This document shows positions 247 to 44,558 of a DNA stretch of 64,000 nucleotides, one piece after another. The notes under the pieces were generated by a model. It saw only the letters and a program-made list of their open reading frames with translations, did not search any database and had not been told where the DNA came from. The position numbers were made by a program, and so were the translations under genes. The stretch spans positions 1 through 64,000 of the forward strand of contig JAQWQF010000019.1 in the NCBI GenBank assembly GCA_029244935.1, given 5' to 3'. Position 1 is the first letter of the stretch; each line of letters opens with the position of its first letter. This DNA is from Methylophilaceae bacterium (GTDB lineage Bacteria; Pseudomonadota; Gammaproteobacteria; Burkholderiales; Methylophilaceae).

Positions 247-977
247 AACTTATATCCCTTGTGAATTGCGACAATACCTGCATTTAGATTAATGTAGCTA
301 ACGCGCTCAAATCCTTCTTTGATAATTATTTTTTTTAGTGCATCCTGATCTGGATGCACTCTAATTGATTCAACCAAATATTGGTAACTTGCCTCATCAT
401 TGGCAATTATTTTTCCAAGCTTCGGAACAATATTAAATGAGAATGCATCATATAGCTTATTTAATGGCTGCCAAATTTTTGAAAACTCTAAAATGATTAA
501 TTTTCCTCCAGGACATAACACTCTATACATTTCAGACAATGCCTTATCTTTATGTGTCATATTTCTTAATCCGAATCCTACAGTGACACAATCAAAGTAA
601 TTGGTTGGAAAAGGCAGATTTTCAGCATCACATACTATTGAAGGTAATATGCTCCCATTATCAATTAGCTTTCTTTTGCCTTCCTTGAGCATGGAGTAAT
701 TAATATCAGTGTGAAAAATTTCATAATTCTTTTTTTCTTTAGAAAGGGCTAATGTCAGGTCTGCGGTTCCTGCAGCTATATCTAGTATCCTAGCATTTGA
801 TTTTAGAGGAGTTGTTTCAATTACTATTTTTTTCCAGATTCTATGAAGCCCAAAGGACATAACGTTATTCATTAAGTCATAATTTTTTGCAACAGAATTA
901 AATACTTCCTTAACTTTTTTTACTTTCTCATCCTTATTTACATTTTTAAATCCAAAATTTACCTCATCATTCTTCAT
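243..977 (-). CDS. ubiE: Demethylmenaquinone/ubiquinone C-methyltransferase UbiE
   Basis: SAM-methyltransferase motifs (ILDIAAGTADLTLAL, VTVGFGLRNMTHKDKALSEMYRVLCPGGKLIILEFS). Start set at MKNDEVNFGF because the longer track ORF overlaps the upstream gene. Confidence 0.95.
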   Translation of the reverse strand: MKNDEVNFGFKNVNKDEKVKKVKEVFNSVAKNYDLMNNVMSFGLHRIWKKIVIETTPLKSNARILDIAAGTADLTLALSKEKKNYEIFHTDINYSMLKEGKRKLIDNGSILPSIVCDAENLPFPTNYFDCVTVGFGLRNMTHKDKALSEMYRVLCPGGKLIILEFSKIWQPLNKLYDAFSFNIVPKLGKIIANDEASYQYLVESIRVHPDQDALKKIIIKEGFERVSYINLNAGIVAIHKGYKF

Positions 978-1338
978 TTTTTTTCCTTTGAATTCCTGAT
1001 GCATCAAGCTTTCCAATATATTCTGTCCACAATTCTTCATAGTTTTTTGCAAGCATGTGTAGGTACTGCCATGAATATAATCCCGTATCGTGCCCGTCTG
1101 AAAAGAAAATTTTAATTGCATAATTTCCTACAGGCTCAATATTATCGATACTAACATTTTCCTTACCAACCTGAAGAACTGCTTGTTCTGGGGCATGCCC
1201 CTGAACTTCTGCCGAAGGAGAGTAAACCCTCAGAAACTCACTCGAAAGCATACATTCTGTATTGTCATCAAAAATAATCTCTAGTAGTTTAGATTTTTGG
1301 TGAAATTTAATTTCACTTGGGGTAGGGGTTGTTGCCAT
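967..1338 (-). CDS. DUF971 (gamma-butyrobetaine hydroxylase-like N-terminal) domain protein
   Basis: Protein pattern EIKFHQKSKLLEIIFDDN...LSSEFLRVYSPSAEVQGH...NYAIKIFFSDGHDTGLYSWQYL is typical of DUF971; adjacent to ubiE. Confidence 0.85.
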   Translation of the reverse strand: MATTPTPSEIKFHQKSKLLEIIFDDNTECMLSSEFLRVYSPSAEVQGHAPEQAVLQVGKENVSIDNIEPVGNYAIKIFFSDGHDTGLYSWQYLHMLAKNYEELWTEYIGKLDASGIQRKKNEE

Positions 1339-1394
1339 TTAATTTATATTCACAAATAGTGAATCTTAACAGACTTGCAATTAAAAATTATTTG

Positions 1395-2252
1395 TTATGA
1401 ATTAGGGAGCATAAGCGCTTTAATTTTTTTTAATGCATTCTGCTCTATCTGCCTAATTCTTTCAGCTGAAATCTTATATTTTTTTGCAAGGTCATGTAAT
1501 GTTTCTGATTTATGATCATTAAGCCATCTTGCTTTAACAATTGCTCGACTGCGCTCATCTAATTTCGCTAATGCATTATTTAGTGATTTAGTATCGTTAT
1601 CCTCTGTTTCATCTTTCTCAATTTGAGCTGATTGTTCAAGTGATTTGTCTTGAAGAAAAGATATTGGTCTATAGGAGTCATCTTCAGATTCATCGTCTGA
1701 ATAGTCAATTGCTATCTCTTTACCGGCAAGACGATATTCCATCTCACGCACTTCATCTTCTTTTACATTTAATTCTAATGCTATCTCTGAAATCTCATGA
1801 CTTTTAAGTGGCTGCAAAGTTTTTTTAAGGCTTCTTAGGTTAAAGAATAATTTACGTTGAGCTTTGGTTGTTGCTGTTTTAACAAGACGCCAATTTCTTA
1901 CAACATATTCCTGTATTTCAGCTTTAATCCAATATATTGCAAATGAAACTAAACGAACTCCGCGGTCTGGATCAAATCGCTTTACAGCTTTCATTAGCCC
2001 AATATTACCCTCTTGAACAAGGTCTGCATGTGGAAGGTTATATCCACTATATGATCGAGCAACTTTCATTACCAATTTAAGATGTGAAAGAATTAGTTTT
2101 TTAGCAGCTTCTAAGTCATTGTTATTCTTAAGTTTACTCGCGAGTTCATATTCTTCCTCAGCTGTGAGCGAAGGAATGGTTCTAATGGTATGCTGGTATA
2201 GGCCAATGTCACCAGAAGGATACATCGCAGTTAATGATAAATTATTTGTCAT
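1395..2252 (-). CDS. rpoH: RNA polymerase sigma factor RpoH (sigma32)
   Basis: Sigma70-family regions including the RpoH box (NWRLVKTATTKAQRKLFFNLR); downstream of ftsYEX. Start chosen at MTNNLSL because the track start (2273) lies inside the CIRCE-like operator. Confidence 0.95.
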   Translation of the reverse strand: MTNNLSLTAMYPSGDIGLYQHTIRTIPSLTAEEEYELASKLKNNNDLEAAKKLILSHLKLVMKVARSYSGYNLPHADLVQEGNIGLMKAVKRFDPDRGVRLVSFAIYWIKAEIQEYVVRNWRLVKTATTKAQRKLFFNLRSLKKTLQPLKSHEISEIALELNVKEDEVREMEYRLAGKEIAIDYSDDESEDDSYRPISFLQDKSLEQSAQIEKDETEDNDTKSLNNALAKLDERSRAIVKARWLNDHKSETLHDLAKKYKISAERIRQIEQNALKKIKALMLPNS

Positions 2253-2266
2253 ATTTTTAATATTTT

Positions 2267-2293
2267 TTAGCACTCTTTATATGTGACTGCTAA
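2267..2293 (-). promoter_or_regulatory. CIRCE-like HrcA operator upstream of rpoH
   Basis: Plus-strand TTAGCACTC-TTTATATGT-GACTGCTAA: 9-bp arms with a 9-bp spacer and one mismatch to TTAGCACTC-N9-GAGTGCTAA. Confidence 0.85.
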
Positions 2294-2321
2294 TTTTAAT
2301 TAAAAGTTCGATTAAATACAA
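2293..2321 (-). promoter_or_regulatory. Candidate housekeeping promoter of rpoH
   Basis: Minus strand TTGTAT-N17-TAAAAT; the -10 abuts the CIRCE-like operator. Confidence 0.5.
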
Positions 2322-2325
2322 GGCT

Positions 2326-3237
2326 TTAGTAAGATTTTTCTAATTTTTTTATTGATTGTCTTGCAGCAAAGAAAGATGAAAATAGGCCAATAGTCATAGC
2401 TAAAAGTACAATAATTAGGTAATCGACAGCTGAAAGACCTACAAGAGTTATCGAATTGCCTAGGATATATTCATATTTTTCAGCTACATTGTTAAAGGCA
2501 AATACTATACTTTTTAGGGTACCTACAGTAATTATGCCACCACCAAGCCCATAGATTAATCCAGTATATATAAATGGTCGATGAATAAAGCTATTAGTAG
2601 CCCCTATAAGCTTACTAACTAGAATCTCATTTTGATAGGTTAAGGTTTGCAATCTAATAGTGTTGCCTATTATCACAATTAATACTATAACTAATAATGT
2701 TCCCAGAGAAAATAAACCAATTTTTACCATATAAATAATAGCTCTTAATTTCTTAATCCAGCTACCATCAATTACTATGTTATCTACCCCACTTATTAAC
2801 TTCAAATCTTCAGTTAGTTTTTTTATTTTTACGTTACTTAGCGTGTTTAGTGTAATAAAAAATCCATCAGGAAGAGGGTTTTCTGATATTCCAATATCTA
2901 AAGTGGATAACTTTAATTTGGATTGTAGCTTTTCCCACGCAATTAATTTAGGCTCATAATGAATTTTTTTTATTTCTGAACTATTTTTTAAAGCTAAATC
3001 AATAAAATCAATTTGATCCTGACTGATGTCTTTTTTAAGGAAAATACTAATTTCTGCCTCATGTTGGATTTTTGTTGAGATTTGTCGAACATTTTCAACG
3101 ATTAAATAACCTGCAGATGGAAGACAAAGGGTGATACCAATAATGACAAACATCATTATTGAGGCACTCAGGTTAGATTTAATTCTAATTAAACCTCTAG
3201 AAAAAGCTTGAAAGTGGTTATGAAAGTAGCGGAACAT
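2326..3237 (-). CDS. ftsX: Cell division protein FtsX
   Basis: FtsX-like permease, four TM segments, directly downstream of ftsE. Confidence 0.93.
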   Translation of the reverse strand: MFRYFHNHFQAFSRGLIRIKSNLSASIMMFVIIGITLCLPSAGYLIVENVRQISTKIQHEAEISIFLKKDISQDQIDFIDLALKNSSEIKKIHYEPKLIAWEKLQSKLKLSTLDIGISENPLPDGFFITLNTLSNVKIKKLTEDLKLISGVDNIVIDGSWIKKLRAIIYMVKIGLFSLGTLLVIVLIVIIGNTIRLQTLTYQNEILVSKLIGATNSFIHRPFIYTGLIYGLGGGIITVGTLKSIVFAFNNVAEKYEYILGNSITLVGLSAVDYLIIVLLAMTIGLFSSFFAARQSIKKLEKSY

Positions 3238-3895
3238 ATTTGTCAGAATTACTTATTTGTCCTTTAATTAGATGAATCTGTTTAAATTTTATAGGAGATT
3301 GAGGTAGCTCGTGACAAGACACAATCACCGTAACTCCAACTTGTTGGAAGCTATAGAAAATATTCATTATTTCATCAGCATAACCCTTATCTAAATTACC
3401 TGTTGGTTCATCAGCTATTAAGATTGATGGTCTTGAAACGATAGCTCTTGCAATCGCTAGTCTTTGTTGTTCACCTCCGGATAATGTTATAGGGTTGACC
3501 TTCTCCTTGCTTAATAATCCAACTTTATTTAAGGCAGCCCTAACTCTCCTTGCAGAATCTGTAGGACTAATATCGTTAATCTCCAAAGGTAGCACAACAT
3601 TTTCAAAACAATTACGATCATAGAGTAATTTATGATCCTGAAAAATCATCCCAAATTTTCTTCGAAGAAAAGGCATATCTTTATTTCTTAATTCTGACAA
3701 ATTGGTATTTTCAAAAATAATAGACCCATTAGTGGGTTTTTCTACTGCAGACATTAATTTAAGTAATGTTGATTTTCCAGCACCTGAAGGACCAGTAACA
3801 AATACTAATTCCCCAGATGATATTTCTAGATTGATATCTTGGAGAACATCCATTTCGTTTGGATATTTTTTAAATACCTTATCAAATTTAATCAT
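3218..3895 (-). CDS. ftsE: Cell division ATP-binding protein FtsE
   Basis: ABC ATPase: GPSGAGKSTLL, LSGGEQQR, ILIADEPTGNLD; ftsY-ftsE-ftsX order. Confidence 0.95.
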   Translation of the reverse strand: MIKFDKVFKKYPNEMDVLQDINLEISSGELVFVTGPSGAGKSTLLKLMSAVEKPTNGSIIFENTNLSELRNKDMPFLRRKFGMIFQDHKLLYDRNCFENVVLPLEINDISPTDSARRVRAALNKVGLLSKEKVNPITLSGGEQQRLAIARAIVSRPSILIADEPTGNLDKGYADEIMNIFYSFQQVGVTVIVSCHELPQSPIKFKQIHLIKGQISNSDKYVPLLS

Positions 3896-5004
3896 TCAAA
3901 CATTGCCTCCGCATAATCTTTTGCATTAAATACTCTTAGATCATCTATACCTTCACCAACGCCAATAAAGCGGATAGGAATAGGGAGCTCTTTGGCAATT
4001 GCAGCTACAACTCCGCCTTTAGCAGTTCCATCAAGCTTTGTCATTACTAAACCTGTAATACCTAATGCCTCATTAAATACCTTTAGTTGATTAATTGCAT
4101 TTTGGCCTGTGTTGGCATCTATAACTAAAAGAATTTCCTGTGGCGCTTGATTATGACATTTATTAATAACTCTTTTAATTTTAGTTATTTCGTCAATTAA
4201 ATTTCTTTGTGTAGGAAGCCTTCCTGCTGTATCAGCAATAACAATATCAATATTCTTAGCTTTAGCAGAATTCACAGCATCAAAAATAACTGCACTAGGG
4301 TCTCCTTTTGTTTGACTGATAACCTGAACCTTGTTTCGTTCTCCCCATACATCAAGTTGTTCAGATGCTGCAGCCCTGAAGGTGTCGCCAGCCGCTATCA
4401 GCACGTTATGTTTTTTATCTATTAGTAATTTTGTTAATTTACCGATTGTAGTAGTTTTACCTGTTCCATTAACTCCAACCATCATTATTACAAAGGGATA
4501 AGTATTCTTTACTATCAGTGGGGCTTCAACTTTTTCTAAAAGTTTTGCTATTTCAAGCTTCAATAAATCTTTTAATTTTTTTGGGTCAGATATATTATTT
4601 TCCTTAACTGAAAACTTAACTTTTTCTATAAGAAATGAAGAGGCTGCTATGCCAACGTCGGCAGATAGCAATATCATTTCTAGCTCTTCATAAAAGTTTT
4701 CATCAATTTTGTTGACATGAAATAGGTCGCCTAATTGTGAACTAAGTTTTTCTCTTGTTTTACTTAGACCTGTTTTAATTTTTTCAGCAAACGAGAATAT
4801 CCCAGATTTTTTTTCTATAGGCTTAACTACTTTAGGCTTTTCTACTTTAGGTTTAATTACTTTAGGCTTTATTACTTTAGGCTTTACTACTTTAGGTTTA
4901 ATTACTTTAGGTTTCTTAGATATTGATTTTTTTACAAAGGGGGTTTTCTCGGAAGTTTTTTTCTCTGGAGTTTTTTTTACTAATTTTTTTAGAAATTCAA
5001 ACAT
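3892..5004 (-). CDS. ftsY: Signal recognition particle receptor FtsY
   Basis: SRP GTPase NG domain (GVNGTGKTTTIGKL, DTFRAAASEQL, DTAGRLPTQ, TKLDGTAKGG). Confidence 0.97.
   Translation of the reverse strand: MFEFLKKLVKKTPEKKTSEKTPFVKKSISKKPKVIKPKVVKPKVIKPKVIKPKVEKPKVVKPIEKKSGIFSFAEKIKTGLSKTREKLSSQLGDLFHVNKIDENFYEELEMILLSADVGIAASSFLIEKVKFSVKENNISDPKKLKDLLKLEIAKLLEKVEAPLIVKNTYPFVIMMVGVNGTGKTTTIGKLTKLLIDKKHNVLIAAGDTFRAAASEQLDVWGERNKVQVISQTKGDPSAVIFDAVNSAKAKNIDIVIADTAGRLPTQRNLIDEITKIKRVINKCHNQAPQEILLVIDANTGQNAINQLKVFNEALGITGLVMTKLDGTAKGGVVAAIAKELPIPIRFIGVGEGIDDLRVFNAKDYAEAMFE
4819..4914 (-). repeat. 15-bp in-frame tandem repeat encoding KPKV(I/V/E) pentapeptides in the FtsY N-terminus
   Basis: Protein KPKVIKPKVVKPKVIKPKVIKPKVEKPKVVKP; DNA unit approximately ATTACTTTAGGCTTT on the plus strand. 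Confidence 0.9.
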
Positions 5005-5074
5005 AATTTTTTAGAACTTAATTTTTGGACTATGGTCAATTACCCATTATTATACAAGTAATTATTAAAAAGGA

Positions 5075-6448
5075 TTGCATGTGAATTTCTTAAAGTTGGT
5101 ATTTATTTTTTGTTTAACACCTTTTTTAGCTCAGGCCGATCAAAATGTCCAAGAAATAACACTAAAAAATGGAATGAGAGTGTTGGTAAAAGAAGACCAT
5201 CGTTCACCCGTTGTTGTTTCAATGGTTTGGTATAGAGCAGGAAGCCTTGATGAAGTTAATGGAAAAACTGGGGTTGCTCATGTTCTTGAACATATGATGT
5301 TCAAGGGTACAAAGACAACGAAACCTGGGGAATACTCAGAAATTGTCGCAGCTGCAGGTGGAAGAGAAAATGCATTTACTGGAGCAGATTACACGGCTTA
5401 TTTTCAAAGGTTAGAAAAATCAAAGCTACCCATATCTATGAAGATGGAAGCTGACAGAATGCAAAACTTGGTCATCACAGAAGAAGAATTCAAAAAAGAA
5501 ATTAGTGTTGTAATGGAAGAGCGTCGATGGAGAACTGATGATAAACCAAAGGCTCAGGTTAATGAGTTGTTTAACTCACTTGTATTTAGAGCTCATCCCT
5601 ATGGAAAACCAATAGTTGGTTGGATGAATGACCTTCAAAATATGACATACGAAGACGCAATAGAATGGTATAAAATGTGGTATAGCCCTAGTAATGCAAT
5701 TCTAGTAGTGGCTGGAGATGTAGATACTAAACAAGTTTTCGCTGAAGCAAGAAAGTATTTTAGTAAAATTCCGGCATATGAAATAGCTAAAAGGAAGCCT
5801 CAGTTTGAGCCAATACAGAATGGTTCAAGAAGGGCAGTTCTAAAAGCGCCAAGTAAGTTACCCTACATTCAAATGGGTTACCCTACACCCACATTAGGTA
5901 AGGACGGGATAACTAATAAGAAAGAAGCTTTTGCACTTGAGGTGTTAGTTGGAATTTTATCAGGTACTAGTTCATCCAGGCTTAATCAAAATTTAGTTAA
6001 AAAGACATCAAGAGCAATAAATGTCAATGCAGGCTACAGTATGCTTTCTCGAGGAGGCCAAAGTACATTTGAAATGTATGGGACACCTAGCGAAAAAGTT
6101 TCTGTAGTTGAATTAGAAAAATACCTGAAGCTTGAACTAAAAAATATTGTTGATCATGGAGTAACGGGTATTGAATTAAAAAGAGTCATAACAAGTGTTA
6201 TTGCTGGCGAAGTTTACCAAAAAGACTCTGTTATGGGGGCAGCTATGCAAATTGGACAACTAGAAACTATGGGCTATTCTCATAAGATAGTTGATGATTA
6301 TATTGATAATATAAAGAAAGTTACATCTAAAGATATTCAGGATGTCATTGAGAAATATTTCCATGATGATGCTTTAACAGTAGTTACATTGGATCCACAG
6401 CCTCTAGATAAAAATAAAACACCAAAAGGAAGACCTCATGCCCATTAA
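5075..6448 (+). CDS. M16 family zinc peptidase (catalytic, HxxEH motif), secreted
   Basis: Signal peptide; HVLEHMMFKGT active site; PqqL/Zn-protease family. TTG or nearby GTG start. Confidence 0.93.
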   Translation: MHVNFLKLVFIFCLTPFLAQADQNVQEITLKNGMRVLVKEDHRSPVVVSMVWYRAGSLDEVNGKTGVAHVLEHMMFKGTKTTKPGEYSEIVAAAGGRENAFTGADYTAYFQRLEKSKLPISMKMEADRMQNLVITEEEFKKEISVVMEERRWRTDDKPKAQVNELFNSLVFRAHPYGKPIVGWMNDLQNMTYEDAIEWYKMWYSPSNAILVVAGDVDTKQVFAEARKYFSKIPAYEIAKRKPQFEPIQNGSRRAVLKAPSKLPYIQMGYPTPTLGKDGITNKKEAFALEVLVGILSGTSSSRLNQNLVKKTSRAINVNAGYSMLSRGGQSTFEMYGTPSEKVSVVELEKYLKLELKNIVDHGVTGIELKRVITSVIAGEVYQKDSVMGAAMQIGQLETMGYSHKIVDDYIDNIKKVTSKDIQDVIEKYFHDDALTVVTLDPQPLDKNKTPKGRPHAH

Positions 6449-36214: not shown

Positions 36215-37006
36215 TTACCCAAACTTACCTGTAATGTAGTCTTCTGTTTCTTTTTTAGAGGGATTTGTAAATATTTTATTTGTATCGTCATGCTCAACTA
36301 GTTCCCCAAGATACATGTAGGCAGTGTAATCAGAAATTCTGGCTGCCTGTTGCATGTTGTGTGTCACTATTAGTATGGAAAGCTTTTTCTTTAATTCAGA
36401 CATTAATTCTTCGATATTAACAGTAGCAATTGGATCTAATGCTGAAGTTGGTTCATCAAAAAGCATAATTTCTGGCTCAGTTGCAAGTGCTCTCGCTATG
36501 CACAGCCTTTGCTGTTGCCCACCTGATAAATTAAATGCTAAGTCATGCAATCGATCTTTCACTTCATTCCATAAGGACGCACCCTTTAGTGCATCTTCAA
36601 CCTTATCATCTAGCATTCTTTTATTGCTCTCACCTCTAACTCTTAAGCCATAAGCTACATTTTCAAAAATAGACTTAGGAAAAGGATTAGGTTTTTGGAA
36701 TACCATACTAATCCGCATTCTTACTTCTATAGGATCAACTTTTTTGTCTAAAATATTTGTATTATCTGGGTAGAGAATAATTTCACCTTCATATTTGTTA
36801 CCAGGATATAAATCATGCATACGATTAAATGACCTTAAGAAGGTCGACTTCCCACACCCAGAAGGTCCTATAAGCGCTGTAATTTTATTTTCATAAACTG
36901 GAAGATTAATCTTTTTTAAAGCCTGTGTTCCGTCAGCATAAAAAAAGTTTAGATCCTTAGATTCAGCTTTGACAATTTCATTGTGTTTATTTTTTTCCGT
37001 TACCAT
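36215..37006 (-). CDS. pstB: Phosphate ABC transporter ATP-binding protein PstB
   Basis: [39 protein letters not shown]. Confidence 0.97.
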
Positions 37007-37968
37007 TTAATTTTCTTCCTAATGTTATACCTAAGTTTAATCGCTGCACCGTTCATTAATGCCGTTAAGATAATAATTACTGCGCCTGTTGCTGCTGCAT
37101 TAATATGAAAAGCATGTTGCGGTCTTGATATCCAGTTGAACATTTGTATTGGTAGGACAGTGAATCCAGCATTCAACCACTCTAAATTAAGGAAAGGGGG
37201 CTCAATTGTGACCGGTGATGGTGGCAAAAAGGCAATAAATGTGAGTGCACCAATAGTTATTAATGGAGCTGTCTCTCCAATTGCTCGAGCCATACCGATA
37301 ATAACTCCTGTCAAGATACCTCCATAGGAGTACTGAACAATATGATTTATTACTACCTGCCATTTTGTTGCACCGACTGCATATGCAGCCTCTCTTATAT
37401 GAACAGGAATTGCTCTAATTGCTTCTCGGGTTGAGACAATTACAATAGGTAACATCAAAAGGGCCAGTGTTAAACCAGCGGTTAATATACTTTGCCCTAA
37501 CCCAAAACTATATACAAATAACCCCAATGCTAGTAAACCATAAATAATTGAAGGGACCCCTGCTAAGTTAGAAACATTAATTTCAATAATGTCTGCAAAC
37601 CAATTCTTTTTTGAGTACTCTTCAAGATAAACACCTGCTGCAATACCTAGTGGAACTGCAACAAAAAAAGTAACAATTAAAACTAATGAGGAACCTACCC
37701 ATGCAGACAGAATACCGGCTCTTGCTGCTCTCCGTGATGGGAAATTTCCAAAGAAGTCTAGGGTAAATTTTGGGTAACCATCTAATACAAGGTCTAAGAA
37801 AAGAACAATTAATGTAATAGTGAGGCTAGCAATCACAAACATACCTAAAGCTGCGAAAGCTAAATCATTTTTTTTATGTCGCTTTATCATTTCCCGAATA
37901 GTTTGCAGGTCATTTAAAGCTGATAATTTTTTCTTATTTAATGCCATAATTTTAATAACGCTCCGCAA
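37000..37968 (-). CDS. pstA: Phosphate ABC transporter permease PstA
   Basis: BPD permease with PstA-like sequence; pstC-pstA-pstB order. Confidence 0.95.
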
Positions 37969-38869
37969 ATTTCTTACGAGTCATATGACCTAGTATATTT
38001 AAAAGCAGAGTCATAACTAATAATGTTAGACCAGCTGCAAAAATACTCTGGTAGCCAATACCTCCATGTTCAAGATCGCCCAAGGCAACAGAAACAATAT
38101 ATGACGTAATAGTTGCTGCACTTTCAACTGGATTAAAAGTAAAATTTGGCTGCTGGCCTGCTGCAATTGCAACAATCATTGTTTCGCCTACTGCTCGACT
38201 AATAGCTAGGATATAAGCAGCTACAATACCTGATATTGCTGCCGGGGTAATAACTCTAATAGAAGTTTGAAATCTTGTTGCTCCCATTGCATAGGCTCCC
38301 TCCCTCATAGCCATTGGAACAGCTCGCATTGAGTCTTCAGCAAGAGATGCGATATATGGAACAATCATTACTCCCATAACAATACCAGGGCCTAACATGT
38401 TGAATGTTGTCAGATCAGGATATATTTTTTGAAGCATTGGAGTGACTAGCATTAATGCAAAATAACCAAAGACAACTGTTGGGACTCCAACTAATAATTC
38501 TAGTATAGGCTTAATGGTTTCTCTAACCTTATGTGTGGCAAATTCTGATAGATATATAGCGGTAATTGTTCCTAATGGAACTGCAACAATTAATGCTATA
38601 AATGTAGTTGTTAATGTACCAGAGACTAGGGGTAGTATTCCGTAATGTTTTATTGAGTAGTTTGGAGTCCATACTGTATCAGTTAGGAATTCATAAATAC
38701 TGACATGCTGAAAAAAAGGAATAGCTTCAGAAACTAAAACATAAACAATGGCAGATGTAATAAAGACTGCAAAAGCTGCAGAGCATAGAAGAGAAAATTC
38801 AATGAATCTCTCCATAATATTTCTTCGAAAATTTTTAGACAATCTTGCGCTTATTATTGGTTCAGACAT
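37952..38869 (-). CDS. pstC: Phosphate ABC transporter permease PstC
   Basis: GTITAIYLSEFA, LLVGVPTVVFGYFAL, RAVGETMIVAIAAG. Confidence 0.95.
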   Translation of the reverse strand: MSEPIISARLSKNFRRNIMERFIEFSLLCSAAFAVFITSAIVYVLVSEAIPFFQHVSIYEFLTDTVWTPNYSIKHYGILPLVSGTLTTTFIALIVAVPLGTITAIYLSEFATHKVRETIKPILELLVGVPTVVFGYFALMLVTPMLQKIYPDLTTFNMLGPGIVMGVMIVPYIASLAEDSMRAVPMAMREGAYAMGATRFQTSIRVITPAAISGIVAAYILAISRAVGETMIVAIAAGQQPNFTFNPVESAATITSYIVSVALGDLEHGGIGYQSIFAAGLTLLVMTLLLNILGHMTRKKFAERY

Positions 38870-38938
38870 AACCGATGCATTCTAATTGTAATCCTTGCAA
38901 TACTACTTTAATTTAACTCTAATTAAAATTACTAGAGT

Positions 38939-38971
38939 GAAAAAAAGGACAATTAAATTGCCCTTTTTATA
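38939..38971 (-). terminator. Terminator/attenuator between pstS and pstC
   Basis: Minus strand AAAAAGGGCAATTTAATTGTCCTTTTTTT: stem-loop with U-tract. Confidence 0.75.
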
Positions 38972-38988
38972 ATTTAACTAATAGTAGA

Positions 38989-39993
38989 TTATTTAGTCGC
39001 TGCTGATAGCTCTAACATTTCCTTCACCGATAAACCAATTGAATGTTTTTCGAATGCAGTACCTGTTTTAAGAGTTTTATAGTGATTTTCAATCATTTTG
39101 TATTCTTCAGAGCTGAATGGTATGTAGCCAACTTCTGTTGCCAGTTCTGCTGCATATTTTAGATAAAAATCTATAAATTTTCTTACGTTTGGATCAAACG
39201 CTGCTTTTGTTGAATTAAGGTAAATAAATAGAGGTCTTGCAAGGGGGTTGTATGTACCATCCATTGTTGTTTTAAGTGATGGTAATATAAAATTTCCCGC
39301 ATCATTCTTTACTGCTACAGCATCTAATTTATTTTTATTTTCAGCATAATATGCTAAACCAAAGTAGCCAATGCCACCTTTATCTCCTGCTACTCCTTGA
39401 ACTAAAACATTATCGTCTTCTGATGCTGTAAAGTCGCCACGAATAGCTTTTGATTTTTCGATAATGGATTCTGTGAAATAATCAAATGTTCCTGAATCCG
39501 CACCTGGGCCATAAAGTCTTAGGGATTGATCAGGGAAGTCAGTTCGTATTTGATTCCAATTCATAATCTTTCCTTGTGCTGCCGGTTCCCACATTTTCTT
39601 GAGTTCTGCAGGAGTCATTTCTTTTGCCCAGTCATTTTTCTTGTTAATTACAATAGTTAAAGCATCAAATGCAATAGGAAGTTCAATAAACTTAATACCA
39701 GCATCTGCACATTTCTTCCGTTCTTTTGCTTTAATTGGACGTGATGCACCTGAGATCACAGTATCGCCACGACAAAACTTTTTCAAACCACCTCCAGTTC
39801 CCGAAACCCCTACAGTAACTTTAATTCCAGTTTCAATTTGAAATTCTTCAGCAACAGCTTCAGTAATTGGATATACCGTACTTGAACCATCAATCTTAAT
39901 AATGTCCACAGCTGCATATGTTGGAGCTGAGAAAGCAAATATGCCAAAAAAAAATACAGCAAGACTTAATTTTATTAGTTTTAATTCTTTCAT
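38989..39993 (-). CDS. pstS: Periplasmic phosphate-binding protein PstS
   Basis: Signal peptide; IKIDGSSTVYPITEAVAEEFQ, SGTGGGLKKFCRGDTVISGASRPIK. Confidence 0.97.
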   Translation of the reverse strand: MKELKLIKLSLAVFFFGIFAFSAPTYAAVDIIKIDGSSTVYPITEAVAEEFQIETGIKVTVGVSGTGGGLKKFCRGDTVISGASRPIKAKERKKCADAGIKFIELPIAFDALTIVINKKNDWAKEMTPAELKKMWEPAAQGKIMNWNQIRTDFPDQSLRLYGPGADSGTFDYFTESIIEKSKAIRGDFTASEDDNVLVQGVAGDKGGIGYFGLAYYAENKNKLDAVAVKNDAGNFILPSLKTTMDGTYNPLARPLFIYLNSTKAAFDPNVRKFIDFYLKYAAELATEVGYIPFSSEEYKMIENHYKTLKTGTAFEKHSIGLSVKEMLELSAATK

Positions 39994-40073: not shown

Positions 40074-40091
40074 ATGACACTTTAATGACAC
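40074..40091 (-). promoter_or_regulatory. PHO box (PhoB site) upstream of pstS
   Basis: Minus strand GTGTCATTAAAGTGTCAT, compared with CTGTCATAAAWCTGTCAT: two TGTCAT repeats with 11-bp periodicity. Confidence 0.85.
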
Positions 40092-40150: not shown

Positions 40151-41255
40151 ATGGAACAGGAAGAGATTTTGCTACTAAAACAGACTATTACTGCTGTTAA
40201 TGAAAAATTTACAGTACTGCGGAGGTATCTTTGACCTTGATGAAAAAATAGAAAGAATTCAAGAATTAACAACAAAACAAGAAGATCCAGCGACCTGGTC
40301 AGATAGAGCTTTAAGTCAAAAAATTGGTAAGGAAAAGAAGGTGCTCGAGGAAATTGTAAATCAGGCTCAACAATTAACTCATCAGCTAAGTGACAATGAA
40401 GAGCTTTTTGAAATGGCTTTAGCTGAAAATGATAGTGATACTTTAATAACTATAAAAAAAGATACTGATCAATTAGAACAAAAAGTTGATGATATTGAAT
40501 TTAAAAGAATGTTTTCTAATCCCATGGACCCTAATAATTGTTTTATTGACTTTCAATCAGGTAGTGGAGGAACTGAAGCTCAAGATTGGGCAAATATGTT
40601 GTTTCGAATGTATATGCGTTATGCAGAAAGAAAAAATTTTAAGGTAGAAATATTAGAATTTTCTGAAGGGGAGGTAGCCGGAATAAAAGGGGCAACTCTT
40701 AAAATTACGGGTGATTATGCCTTTGGTTATTTTAGAACAGAAACAGGGATACATAGATTAGTAAGAAAGTCTCCATTTGATTCAGGTAGTCGGCGGCATA
40801 CTTCTTTTGCTGGAGTAAATGTTTATCCAGAAATTGATGACTCGATTGATATTGAAGTGAATCCTGCAGAATTAAGAATTGATACATATCGAGCATCTGG
40901 TGCTGGAGGTCAACATATCAATAAAACAGATTCTGCTGTTAGAATTACACATTTACCAACTAATACTGTTGTTCAATGTCAAAATGATCGTTCTCAGCAT
41001 CGAAATAAAGCAGAGGCGATGAATATGCTAAAAGCCCAACTTTATGCTATGGAACTTAATAAGCGTAATGAAGAGAAACAGGCAGTCGAAGATGCAAAGA
41101 CTGATATTGGTTGGGGGCATCAGATTAGAAGTTATGTGTTGGATCAGTCTCGAATTAAGGACCTAAGAACCAATATTGAGGTTGGAAATACACAGGGGGT
41201 TCTAGATGGTGATTTAGACCCATTTATCAGTGAGAGTTTAAAGCAAGGGGTATAG
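40151..41255 (+). CDS. prfB: Peptide chain release factor 2, with +1 programmed frameshift at CTT TGA (40229-40234)
   Basis: ATG at 40151 reads 26 codons to CTT TGA C, preceded by GGAGGT; the +1 frame continues as [12 protein letters not shown]...[18 protein letters not shown]...[18 protein letters not shown]. The track start at 40200 is spurious. Confidence 0.95.
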
Positions 41256-41256
41256 T

Positions 41257-42771
41257 TTGAGTGAAGAAAAACAGCCTGTAATTCAGGATGAAAATTCGAT
41301 AATTTTAGAGCGACGAGCTAAACTAAAAGAGCTTCGTGAAAAGGGCGTGGCTTTTCCAAACCAGTTCGCTCCAGATGCTTTTTCCAGAAAATTACATCAA
41401 GATTACGACGGACTTGATAAGGAAGCCTTAGAAGAAAAATCGATGGTGGTCTCAATTGCAGGGCGAATGATATTAAAGCGCGTGATGGGGAAGGCGAGTT
41501 TTGCAACTATTCAAGATTCAACTGGGCGCATACAGCTTTATGTATCTCGGGACTTAATAAATAATGAAGATAATCCTGAGCTATATTCTTCTTTTAAACG
41601 CTGGGATTTAGGTGACATAATTTGGGCGAAAGGAACATTATTTAAAACAAAAACTAATGAGCTTTCATTGCATGTTACTGAGATTAATTTATTGACTAAA
41701 TCCCTAAGGCCCTTACCAGAAAAATTCCATGGTCTATCAGATCAAGAAACAAAATATCGTCAGCGATATGTCGATTTAATTGTAAATGAAGATACTCGAG
41801 ATACATTTTTAAAGCGGAGTCAGATTGTCGCAGGTATTCGTGCTTTTATGACAGATCATCAATTCTTAGAAGTAGAAACTCCAATGTTGCATGCAATTCC
41901 TGGGGGTGCTACCGCAAAACCATTCGAGACACATCATAATGCTTTGGATATGGATATGTTTTTAAGGATTGCTCCAGAGCTCTATCTAAAAAGGTTGGTT
42001 GTTGGGGGATTTGATCGAGTATTTGAGATAAATAGAAATTTTCGGAATGAAGGGTTAAGCGTTAGACATAATCCTGAGTTTACTATGATGGAGTTCTACG
42101 CAGCTTATACTGATTATCATTGGCTAATGAATTTTACAGAAAATTGTATTCGTAATGTAGCAGAACTAACAACTGGATCAATGGTAGTTCAGTACCAAGG
42201 AAAGCCAATTGATTTTAGTAAGCCATTTGACAAGCTAACTTTGGTTCAGGCAATCATGAAGTATTCTGATCGTTTTAAAGATAGTGAGCTTATTGATAAA
42301 GGATTCATTAAGAATACTTTATCAAAGACAGGAATTTCTCTAACAGAAAATGCAGGGTTAGGCGCATATCAGTTAGCACTTTTTGAGACTGTTGCTGAAG
42401 AGCATTTATGGGATCCGACTTATATCATTGATTACCCTATTGAGGTTTCTCCATTAGCAAGAACTTCTGATACTAACCCAGAGATCACAGAGCGATTCGA
42501 GTTGTTTATTGCCGGACGTGAGATTGCAAATGGCTTTTCAGAGTTGAATGATGCAGAGGATCAAGCAGCACGTTTTAAAGCTCAAGCCCAAGCTAAAGAG
42601 GCGGGGGATGAAGAGGCCATGTTTTATGATGCTGATTTTATTCGTGCATTAGAGTACGGCATGCCACCAACAGGTGGTTGTGGTATTGGAATAGATCGAT
42701 TAGTGATGTTAGTTACTGACAGCCCGAGTATCCGAGATGTAATTTTATTCCCTCACATGAGAGCAGAGTAA
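41257..42771 (+). CDS. lysS: Lysyl-tRNA synthetase (class II, TTG start)
   Basis: Class II aaRS motifs; [23 protein letters not shown]; follows prfB. Confidence 0.98.
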
Positions 42772-42776
42772 AAATC

Positions 42777-43421
42777 ATGAATAAATATTCAAGTTACGAT
42801 CGTGATTTAATGAGCCCTAAAGATGCACTCCAAGTTTTAGTCGAAGGAAATACTCGTTTCGTTAATAACGACAAACGTCAGTATGATGTGTTAATAACTA
42901 GGAATGAAACTAAAGATAAACAACAGCCTTTTGCTTCCATTTTAGGCTGCAGTGATTCTAGAGCTTCAGTTGAGTTTATTTTTGATCAGAATTTGGGTGA
43001 TTTATTTAGTGTGAGGCTCGCAGGAAATATTGCATCAAAAGAGGCAGTTGGAAGCCTTGAATTTTCAACCAAACACCTAGGTTCTAAAATTATTGTTGTT
43101 ATGGGCCATACAAATTGTGGTGCAATTAAGGCAGCATGTGATCAATATTATGAAGGAAACATTGGTGAAATTATTCGACTTATTGAGCCAGCTGTTGCTG
43201 CTGAGAAAAATATACTTTCTAAAAAAGATAGGGGTTCACATAACGAAATATTTGTTGAGAAGGTTTGCTTCCATAATATTCAGTATCAAATAGATCAGAT
43301 TTTAAAGCAAAGCAGTATTATTAGAGACCAATTAAAAGAAAAAAAAGTTGCTCTCATTGGTGCCGTCTATAACTTAAGCACAGGCATAGTTGAATTCGAT
43401 TTAGATAATGTTCAAATGTAA
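42777..43421 (+). CDS. Beta-class carbonic anhydrase
   Basis: Zinc site CSDSRAS...GHTNCGAIKAA; SVRLAGNI. Confidence 0.93.
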   Translation: MNKYSSYDRDLMSPKDALQVLVEGNTRFVNNDKRQYDVLITRNETKDKQQPFASILGCSDSRASVEFIFDQNLGDLFSVRLAGNIASKEAVGSLEFSTKHLGSKIIVVMGHTNCGAIKAACDQYYEGNIGEIIRLIEPAVAAEKNILSKKDRGSHNEIFVEKVCFHNIQYQIDQILKQSSIIRDQLKEKKVALIGAVYNLSTGIVEFDLDNVQM

Positions 43422-43508
43422 TCACGTTGTTTTCATACAACATCTCTTAACCCATTAGTTCCAAAGCTTTTAATAAAAAATATCCTCGAACAGAATTTAA
43501 TCTCTTGT

Positions 43509-43526
43509 TTGTCATTAATTTGTCAT
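43509..43526 (+). promoter_or_regulatory. Candidate PHO box upstream of an outer-membrane protein gene
   Basis: TTGTCATTAATTTGTCAT: two TTGTCAT repeats 11 bp apart, like the pstS box. Confidence 0.7.
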
Positions 43527-43657
43527 ATTTATTTTTAATAATAGTCACAAGTTCTGAAAATTTATTGGCTTGAAGATTTTAAAACTATTAATTTAAAAAA
43601 TAATTTAGAGGCAAAAATAATATGAAATCAAATATAATAGATAATAGAATCATAAAC

Positions 43658-44215
43658 ATGAAAAAAATTATCTTAATTATTCTGTTGTTAATGACAAAAG
43701 AGATTATGGCGGAAGATTATTATGGAAAAATCTCTCTGGGACAACAAAATGGTAAAGATGGTGGGCAAGACGCAACTGAAGGTGGATTTGTATTAGGTCT
43801 GAAATGGAATAGTAATGTTTCAACTGAATTTAAAGCTGTTCATAAACAAAAAGACACTAAAGGATTTAGTACAAGAATAGGTGTAGGAATTATTAGTAAG
43901 ATTAAATTATCTGATAATCTAAGTGCATATACAAGAGTCGGTGCTGGTAACAAAAAAACAAATACAAAGACTTTTAATTTTTGGGCTATTACCCCAGGTT
44001 TGAAATATAAAATTGATGATAAATGGTCAATTAAGGGTGGCGTAAGATTTCGTGATGCATTTGATAGTGATAAATACCGTGATTATACAAAGACATATAA
44101 AGCGGGTATTGGTTATAAGCTTTCTAAGGACACTTCAGTATCAATAGGAATTAAAAGAAAAGTAGGTGACAGTGAATATAATGCAATTGGACTTGGGTAT
44201 GGAGTTAGTTTTTAG
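43658..44215 (+). CDS. Small outer-membrane beta-barrel protein of unknown function
   Basis: Signal peptide MKKIILIILLLMTKEIMAE; alternating amphipathic strands; C-terminal Phe. Start placed at the internal MKKIIL; the track start is 43622. Confidence 0.75.
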   Translation: MKKIILIILLLMTKEIMAEDYYGKISLGQQNGKDGGQDATEGGFVLGLKWNSNVSTEFKAVHKQKDTKGFSTRIGVGIISKIKLSDNLSAYTRVGAGNKKTNTKTFNFWAITPGLKYKIDDKWSIKGGVRFRDAFDSDKYRDYTKTYKAGIGYKLSKDTSVSIGIKRKVGDSEYNAIGLGYGVSF

Positions 44216-44222
44216 CTCCCCA

Positions 44223-44558
44223 TTATCCTTCACTAGCTAAATTAATTGTATATTTTGGAATTTCAATAGTAAGATCTTTGTCTTTTAAGATAGATTGACA
44301 AGATAGTCTAGATTGCGGGCATAATCCCCAAGCCTTATCGAGCATATCATCTTCATTTTCATCCGAAGGATCTAGGGATTCAAATCCTTCTTTAATCACT
44401 ATATGACAAGTAGTACAAGCACAAACTTGATCGCATGCATGTTCAATCGGAATATTATTTTTTAATAATGCATTACAAATTGATTCTCCGGATTTTGCCT
44501 CAATGACATCGCCTTCTGGACATAAATCTTGGTGAGGTAATATAATAATTTTCGGCAT
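44223..44558 (-). CDS. fdx: [2Fe-2S] ferredoxin (Isc-type)
   Basis: HACDQVCACTTCHIVI...LCPQSRLSCQ; end of the isc operon. Confidence 0.96.
   Translation of the reverse strand: MPKIIILPHQDLCPEGDVIEAKSGESICNALLKNNIPIEHACDQVCACTTCHIVIKEGFESLDPSDENEDDMLDKAWGLCPQSRLSCQSILKDKDLTIEIPKYTINLASEG

Follow-up and report, generated by a model that had tools for sequence, protein, structure and literature searches.

PhoB-controlled porins are well known; PhoE, for instance, is a large trimeric general porin. Porins also often serve as phage receptors. In the marine relative NB0046, the gene for a phosphate-selective O/P porin (NB46_00625) lies near the pst genes (NB46_00628-631), and under a nutrient-deplete regime the pst and porin transcripts shifted in the same way, both being lower (PMC5120137). 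These data agree with a linkage of pst and porin, perhaps with their co-regulation, but they disagree with a simple increase upon starvation; because the transcripts were lower rather than higher, that experiment does not settle the sense of the starvation response.

The locus described here adds a further element: it appears to be an exchange locus at which the PHO box and the gene start are constant and the outer-membrane barrel varies, the barrel in this case being of a type known mainly from phages. It was found in a 64,000-nucleotide stretch of DNA (the window), part of contig C5 of a 1.25-Mb Methylophilaceae genome in 32 contigs. The host is a freshwater methylotroph that we liken, from genome size and gene content, to the freshwater ‘Ca. 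Methylopumilus’ lineage. Around the open reading frame (ORF) of interest, the gene order is pstBACS (minus strand), prfB, lysS, carbonic anhydrase (plus strand), the ORF, and then fdx, hscA, hscB, iscA, iscU and iscS (minus strand). For comparison, we used 31 genomes from the same genus.

An initial annotation of this DNA had proposed that a PHO box with two TGTCAT half-sites and an 11-bp period, resembling that of the window’s pstS, precedes the ORF. Both sites indeed carry the exact pattern TGTCAT-N5-TGTCAT, which has just three occurrences in the 1.25 Mb of the genome, one each before pstS, the barrel ORF and phoB (C2:80360, minus strand). Genus-wide (31 genomes), there were 68 exact occurrences vs. 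one for a reversed control pattern. Many of the genus sites that we examined precede pstS, phoB, the gene at the barrel/porin locus or ppk-like genes; downstream of some other exact sites, no Pho gene is obvious (e.g., L122, L128 and L130). We also employed a position weight matrix (PWM) trained solely on pstS boxes (21 loci from other genomes). The box 5′ of the barrel ORF scored 23.7 bits, ranking second in the 64-kb window, in which the pstS box scored 28.0. The box stands well above both measures of background, i.e. the third-ranked site (12.2 bits) and the top of 20 shuffled windows (16.9 bits).

Downstream of the box, an AT-rich motif similar to the putative −10 element is found at equal spacing in many of the aligned porin-locus and pstS promoters, and the spacing from box to ORF is 95 nt in the window and in the sister genome G005 alike. 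At most porin-gene loci of the genus, the box is at the orthologous position with no more than one mismatch. One exception is G011 (listed as 99% complete), which has both an O/P porin and pstS and in which a search allowing ≤1 mismatch gave no box upstream of these two genes; control by the box is therefore not genus-wide.

Two further observations were made on the boxes of this genus. In several genomes they stand before ppk-like genes (L123:3457, L124:3674, L132:2475 and L125:6496), which suggests that polyphosphate synthesis would belong to the Pho regulon of those genomes. The box of phoB (L035, approximately 1501-1517; C2:80360 in the window genome, G000) ends only a few nucleotides 5′ of the first ATG of the frame. 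This is too near for an ordinary leader, and so the true phoB start may be further downstream.

Features of the porin locus and its surroundings, in coordinates of the window
Feature	Position	Strand	Remarks
pstSCAB operon	36215..39993	-	3′ of the reference PHO box; genes named from their sequences
Reference PHO box of pstS	40074..40090	-	Exact match and PWM
Tract of raised identity to G005/G026, read as recombined flank	40500..43633	.	About 90-100% identity
Beta-carbonic anhydrase gene	42777..43421	+	Flanks the porin locus on the left; conserved
PHO box TGTCATTAATTTGTCAT	43510..43526	+	Two TGTCAT half-sites, 11-bp period; exact match and PWM
Putative −10 element TAATAAT	43536..43542	+	Nine to ten nt 3′ of the box; assigned by position
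Shine-Dalgarno-like AGAGG	43607..43611	+	10 nt 5′ of ATG 43622; common to the G005 porin gene
Small outer-membrane beta-barrel ORF	43622..44215	+	197 aa; 185 aa from the alternative start, ATG 43658
Junction	43633..43634	.	Identical to G005 through codon 4 (ATGAAATCAAAT), unrelated beyond; G005 continues as a Porin_5 gene
Ferredoxin gene fdx (isc cluster)	44223..44558	-	Right neighbour in many genus genomes and in RIS_SAG_48

What, then, usually occupies this slot? In the sister genomes, the carbonic anhydrase gene is followed by the box and then by a gene for a porin of 450-550 aa. Fifteen proteins from the locus were tested, of which 10 matched PF07396 (phosphate-selective porin O/P) and five matched PF16930 (Porin_5). 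In the window genome and in RIS_SAG_48 (G004), an uncultured Methylophilaceae bacterium of another species, a small barrel stands where the sisters have the large porin. The RIS_SAG_48 gene is 79-80% identical to that of the window and, with the same orientation, adjoins fdx; as the contig breaks off within the gene, the comparison covers the coding part and the fdx side. When the window genome was searched with the G009 porin, no copy of the locus O/P porin was revealed. The sole match to the PF07396 profile in that genome was on contig C3, a divergent porin with different neighbours; the genome is thus not free of O/P-type porins.

The small protein itself had been described as a secreted beta-barrel of about 185 aa with amphipathic strands and a C-terminal Phe, a description that has held up. 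By visual inspection, the ORF begins with a signal peptide; the length of 185 aa is obtained from the alternative start, and the mature protein comprises about 167 aa with a pI of 9.7, no Cys and the terminal Phe. The initial annotation could name no family for it, and this point needs revision: the PF13505 (OMP_b-brl) profile, albeit generic, scored 41.7 bits vs. a cut-off of 28.7, with weaker matches to generic porin families besides. PF07396 gave no match to the protein at E ≤ 10. An AlphaFold model calculated from 14 aligned sequences has ten strands along which hydropathy alternates (mean pLDDT 86.3, pTM 0.77). An earlier model, built from three sequences, was poor (pLDDT 57.6); its PDB search was set aside, and its viral search, which returned phage proteins of about 185 aa, was taken as a lead only. 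With Foldseek, the better matches among solved structures included OmpG, OpcA, the designed TMB10 barrels, NanC, KdgM and NspA. A sequence search of solved structures with a four-row profile returned nothing at E ≤ 1.

The predicted interior of the barrel is strongly basic. Strand faces were assigned from hydropathy rather than from the coordinates of the model; on this assignment, the inward face has 64 residues, with 19 Lys/Arg, two Asp/Glu and 18 Gly. The corresponding faces carry 16-17 basic and eight acidic residues in homologues from the genus that lack a box, and 12-13 basic and 13-15 acidic residues in distant host relatives; in the phage copies, the numbers are mostly 18-20 and 6-7, respectively. 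A basic, Gly-rich interior would fit a narrow anion channel.

The barrel family is scarce in sequenced hosts. It was detected in five of 187 Methylophilaceae genomes; a sample of the order gave one weak match, and in a sample of the class the window genome stood alone. Two genomes of the genus, G003 and G016, have relatives of 29-33% identity elsewhere in the genome, next to a quinone-oxidoreductase-like gene and boxless around the start; at the locus, both retain a large porin behind a box (one mismatch). Close full-length relatives beyond the genus came from IMG/VR viral contigs, several of which bear T4-like genes. These viral copies are 28-43% identical to the window barrel over the full length, and more so in fragments. 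The family shares the motifs RFRD and GDSxYNxxG, with R130/R132 and K168-G170-D171-S172 invariant. On three contigs (L139-L141), the barrel gene has T4-type RNase H/DUF6433 genes on one side and PhoH on the other; on L144-L147, it directly precedes the genes for the gp45 clamp and the clamp loader. In a tree whose deep forks were unresolved, the two locus copies formed a branch of their own. The phage and plasmid record collections contained no match to the window protein, and we found nothing directly relevant in the literature on phage-encoded porins or on the Methylophilaceae Pho regulon. No PHO box was detected upstream of the phage copies: in the phage records, matches at two mismatches were, overall, not above the reversed-pattern control. 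It had been proposed to check whether homologues keep the box, and the answer is divided: the locus keeps it, but homologues of the gene elsewhere (G003, G016, phages) are without it.

The viral contigs and the porin locus yielded other observations. On L153 (IMGVR_UViG_3300025120_009955, 72 kb), the barrel is directly preceded, at 797-5588, by genes for a methanol dehydrogenase and a formate-dehydrogenase-like subunit of the molybdopterin type. The methanol dehydrogenase, of the PQQ family, is 91-96% identical to pieces of the gene in the window genome; the contig also encodes Hsp70, Cpn60, ClpP and a tail-fibre-like gene. The contig may stem from a methylotroph virus that carries carbon-metabolism genes, or it may be partly host DNA. 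In two hosts, the vicinity of the porin locus encodes a protein of 69-73 aa that has an MSPEELxxAFE motif and apparently a single membrane segment (L098:7374-7580, L099:5191-5397); a similar protein (32% over 53 residues) is encoded directly before the barrel of a phage (L144:5783-6001).

The boundary of the exchanged gene could be placed by comparison with G005, in which the Shine-Dalgarno-like element and the first ATG of the barrel ORF belong to the porin gene. The 213-bp intergenic stretch is 100% identical between the two genomes. Over pstA-pstS, about 75-90% of positions agree with G005; the proportion climbs through prfB and lysS and reaches 98-100% at the carbonic anhydrase gene and the promoter, the rise starting more than 3 kb upstream of the junction. 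A gradient of this kind is what homologous recombination leaves behind. Flexible islands made by recombination are known in the genomes of these bacteria (PMC10872708); the word “porin” is absent from the main text of that report.

From these comparisons, we lean toward the following interpretation. The locus would be a PhoB-controlled porin-exchange locus, in which homologous recombination swapped the resident phosphate porin gene for a small, phage-associated barrel that is probably a narrow anion channel. The PHO box and the replacement of the porin are the well-supported parts. When phosphate is low, PhoR-PhoB would bind the boxes and jointly induce pstS, phoB and the barrel gene, and the barrel, if its pore is open to anions, would take over from OprO/P in supplying the Pst transporter with phosphate. 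The initial annotation had suggested a phosphate-starvation outer-membrane protein, possibly a functional analogue of OprP; the orthologous box before O/P porins in the sister genomes supports this suggestion. Beyond it, the aligned sequences indicate that a recombining porin locus received this gene as a replacement, its family being otherwise found mostly on phage contigs. The donor would have been a phage, and the direction of transfer from phage to host. A counterpoint to the channel function is that the lumen of a ten-stranded barrel may be blocked; among small barrels already described, several do not act as channels. A bolder formulation holds that the host adopted a phage-encoded barrel as its starvation porin, keeping the PHO box and ribosome-binding site and replacing everything from codon 5 onward, that the product is a minimal ten-stranded anion channel, and that the locus is an exchange site linking phage predation to phosphate uptake. 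Taken whole, we deem this formulation tentative and rather unlikely.

The strongest competing account is that phage predation drove the swap. The starvation porin would have been lost as a receptor, the phage copies might serve the phage itself (e.g., by altering the surface of the infected cell), and the PHO box would be a leftover. Three barrel types at one locus together with a recombination tract, and the presence of the small barrel on viral contigs, several with T4-like genes, would be expected on this account. However, it has no need of the strongly basic, Gly-rich lumen of the two locus copies, and the fact that the genes in the slot are always outer-membrane barrels with the box retained suggests selection for uptake. 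We consider this account possible, though unlikely. Less probable still, and in our estimation doubtful, is that the barrel is a passenger: a general structural or adhesin-like outer-membrane protein that came to lie behind a PHO box by chance and has no role in phosphate acquisition. The boxless homologues of G003 and G016, which leave a large porin at the locus, speak for it, as does the adhesin OpcA among the ten-strand fold neighbours; yet the gene occupies the same place in two species whose proteins have diverged by ~20%, which argues that it was kept, and the charge of its lumen is unlike that of the boxless homologues. Finally, it is very improbable that two metagenome strains were joined in assembly at the box-barrel junction: the 213-bp stretch identical to G005 is a possible branch point for the assembler, but the N-free join at codon 4 needs reads from some real genome that span it, the gradient of identity sets in well before the junction, and the same gene is found in the same place beside fdx in RIS_SAG_48, so the junction likely exists in some real genome.

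On the favored interpretation, that of a PhoB-controlled exchange locus, members of one genus fill a single starvation-controlled slot with at least three types of barrel, one of which T4-like phages also carry. Should the small barrel prove to conduct phosphate, it would be unusually small for a natural channel, and its lumen would be simple and basic. Such a locus would also serve as a natural experiment on nutrient uptake vs. phage exposure in abundant freshwater bacteria that have cultured members.

How does the window protein compare with described barrels? With OprP/OprO (PF07396), it shares the slot and PHO box of sister genomes, an expected control by starvation and a basic lumen. It differs in having only ~167 aa in its mature form and ten predicted strands, whereas the porins of the locus are precursors of 450-550 aa; it has no PF07396 match, and membership in the O/P porins was rejected. 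The likeness to E. coli PhoE, a PhoB-controlled anion porin, consists of a PhoB-type box, an outer-membrane location and a probable preference for anions. The window protein is small, however, and lacks any specific match apart from a generic Porin_4 score barely above the cut-off; homology to PhoE was rejected. Among the OmpA/OmpX-like barrels of PF13505, the profile score, small size and secretion all agree, but the family is generic and the model has ten strands instead of eight. Of the solved structures, TMB10, OpcA, NanC/KdgM and OmpG rank with the nearest in fold (Foldseek E about 1e-7 to 4e-6), although the identities of 10-17% are not meaningful, and OmpG and NanC have more strands. 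The likeness to Pfam PF24653 (phage barrels) is weak. The window protein has full-length similarity, shared motifs and the same predicted fold in common with the barrels of tailed phages, T4-like ones included (IMG/VR; porin-like entries in BFVD); the neighbours of those phage genes are RNase H, PhoH or gp45-gp44 genes, a PHO box is absent, and the predicted lumens of their products contain more acidic residues.
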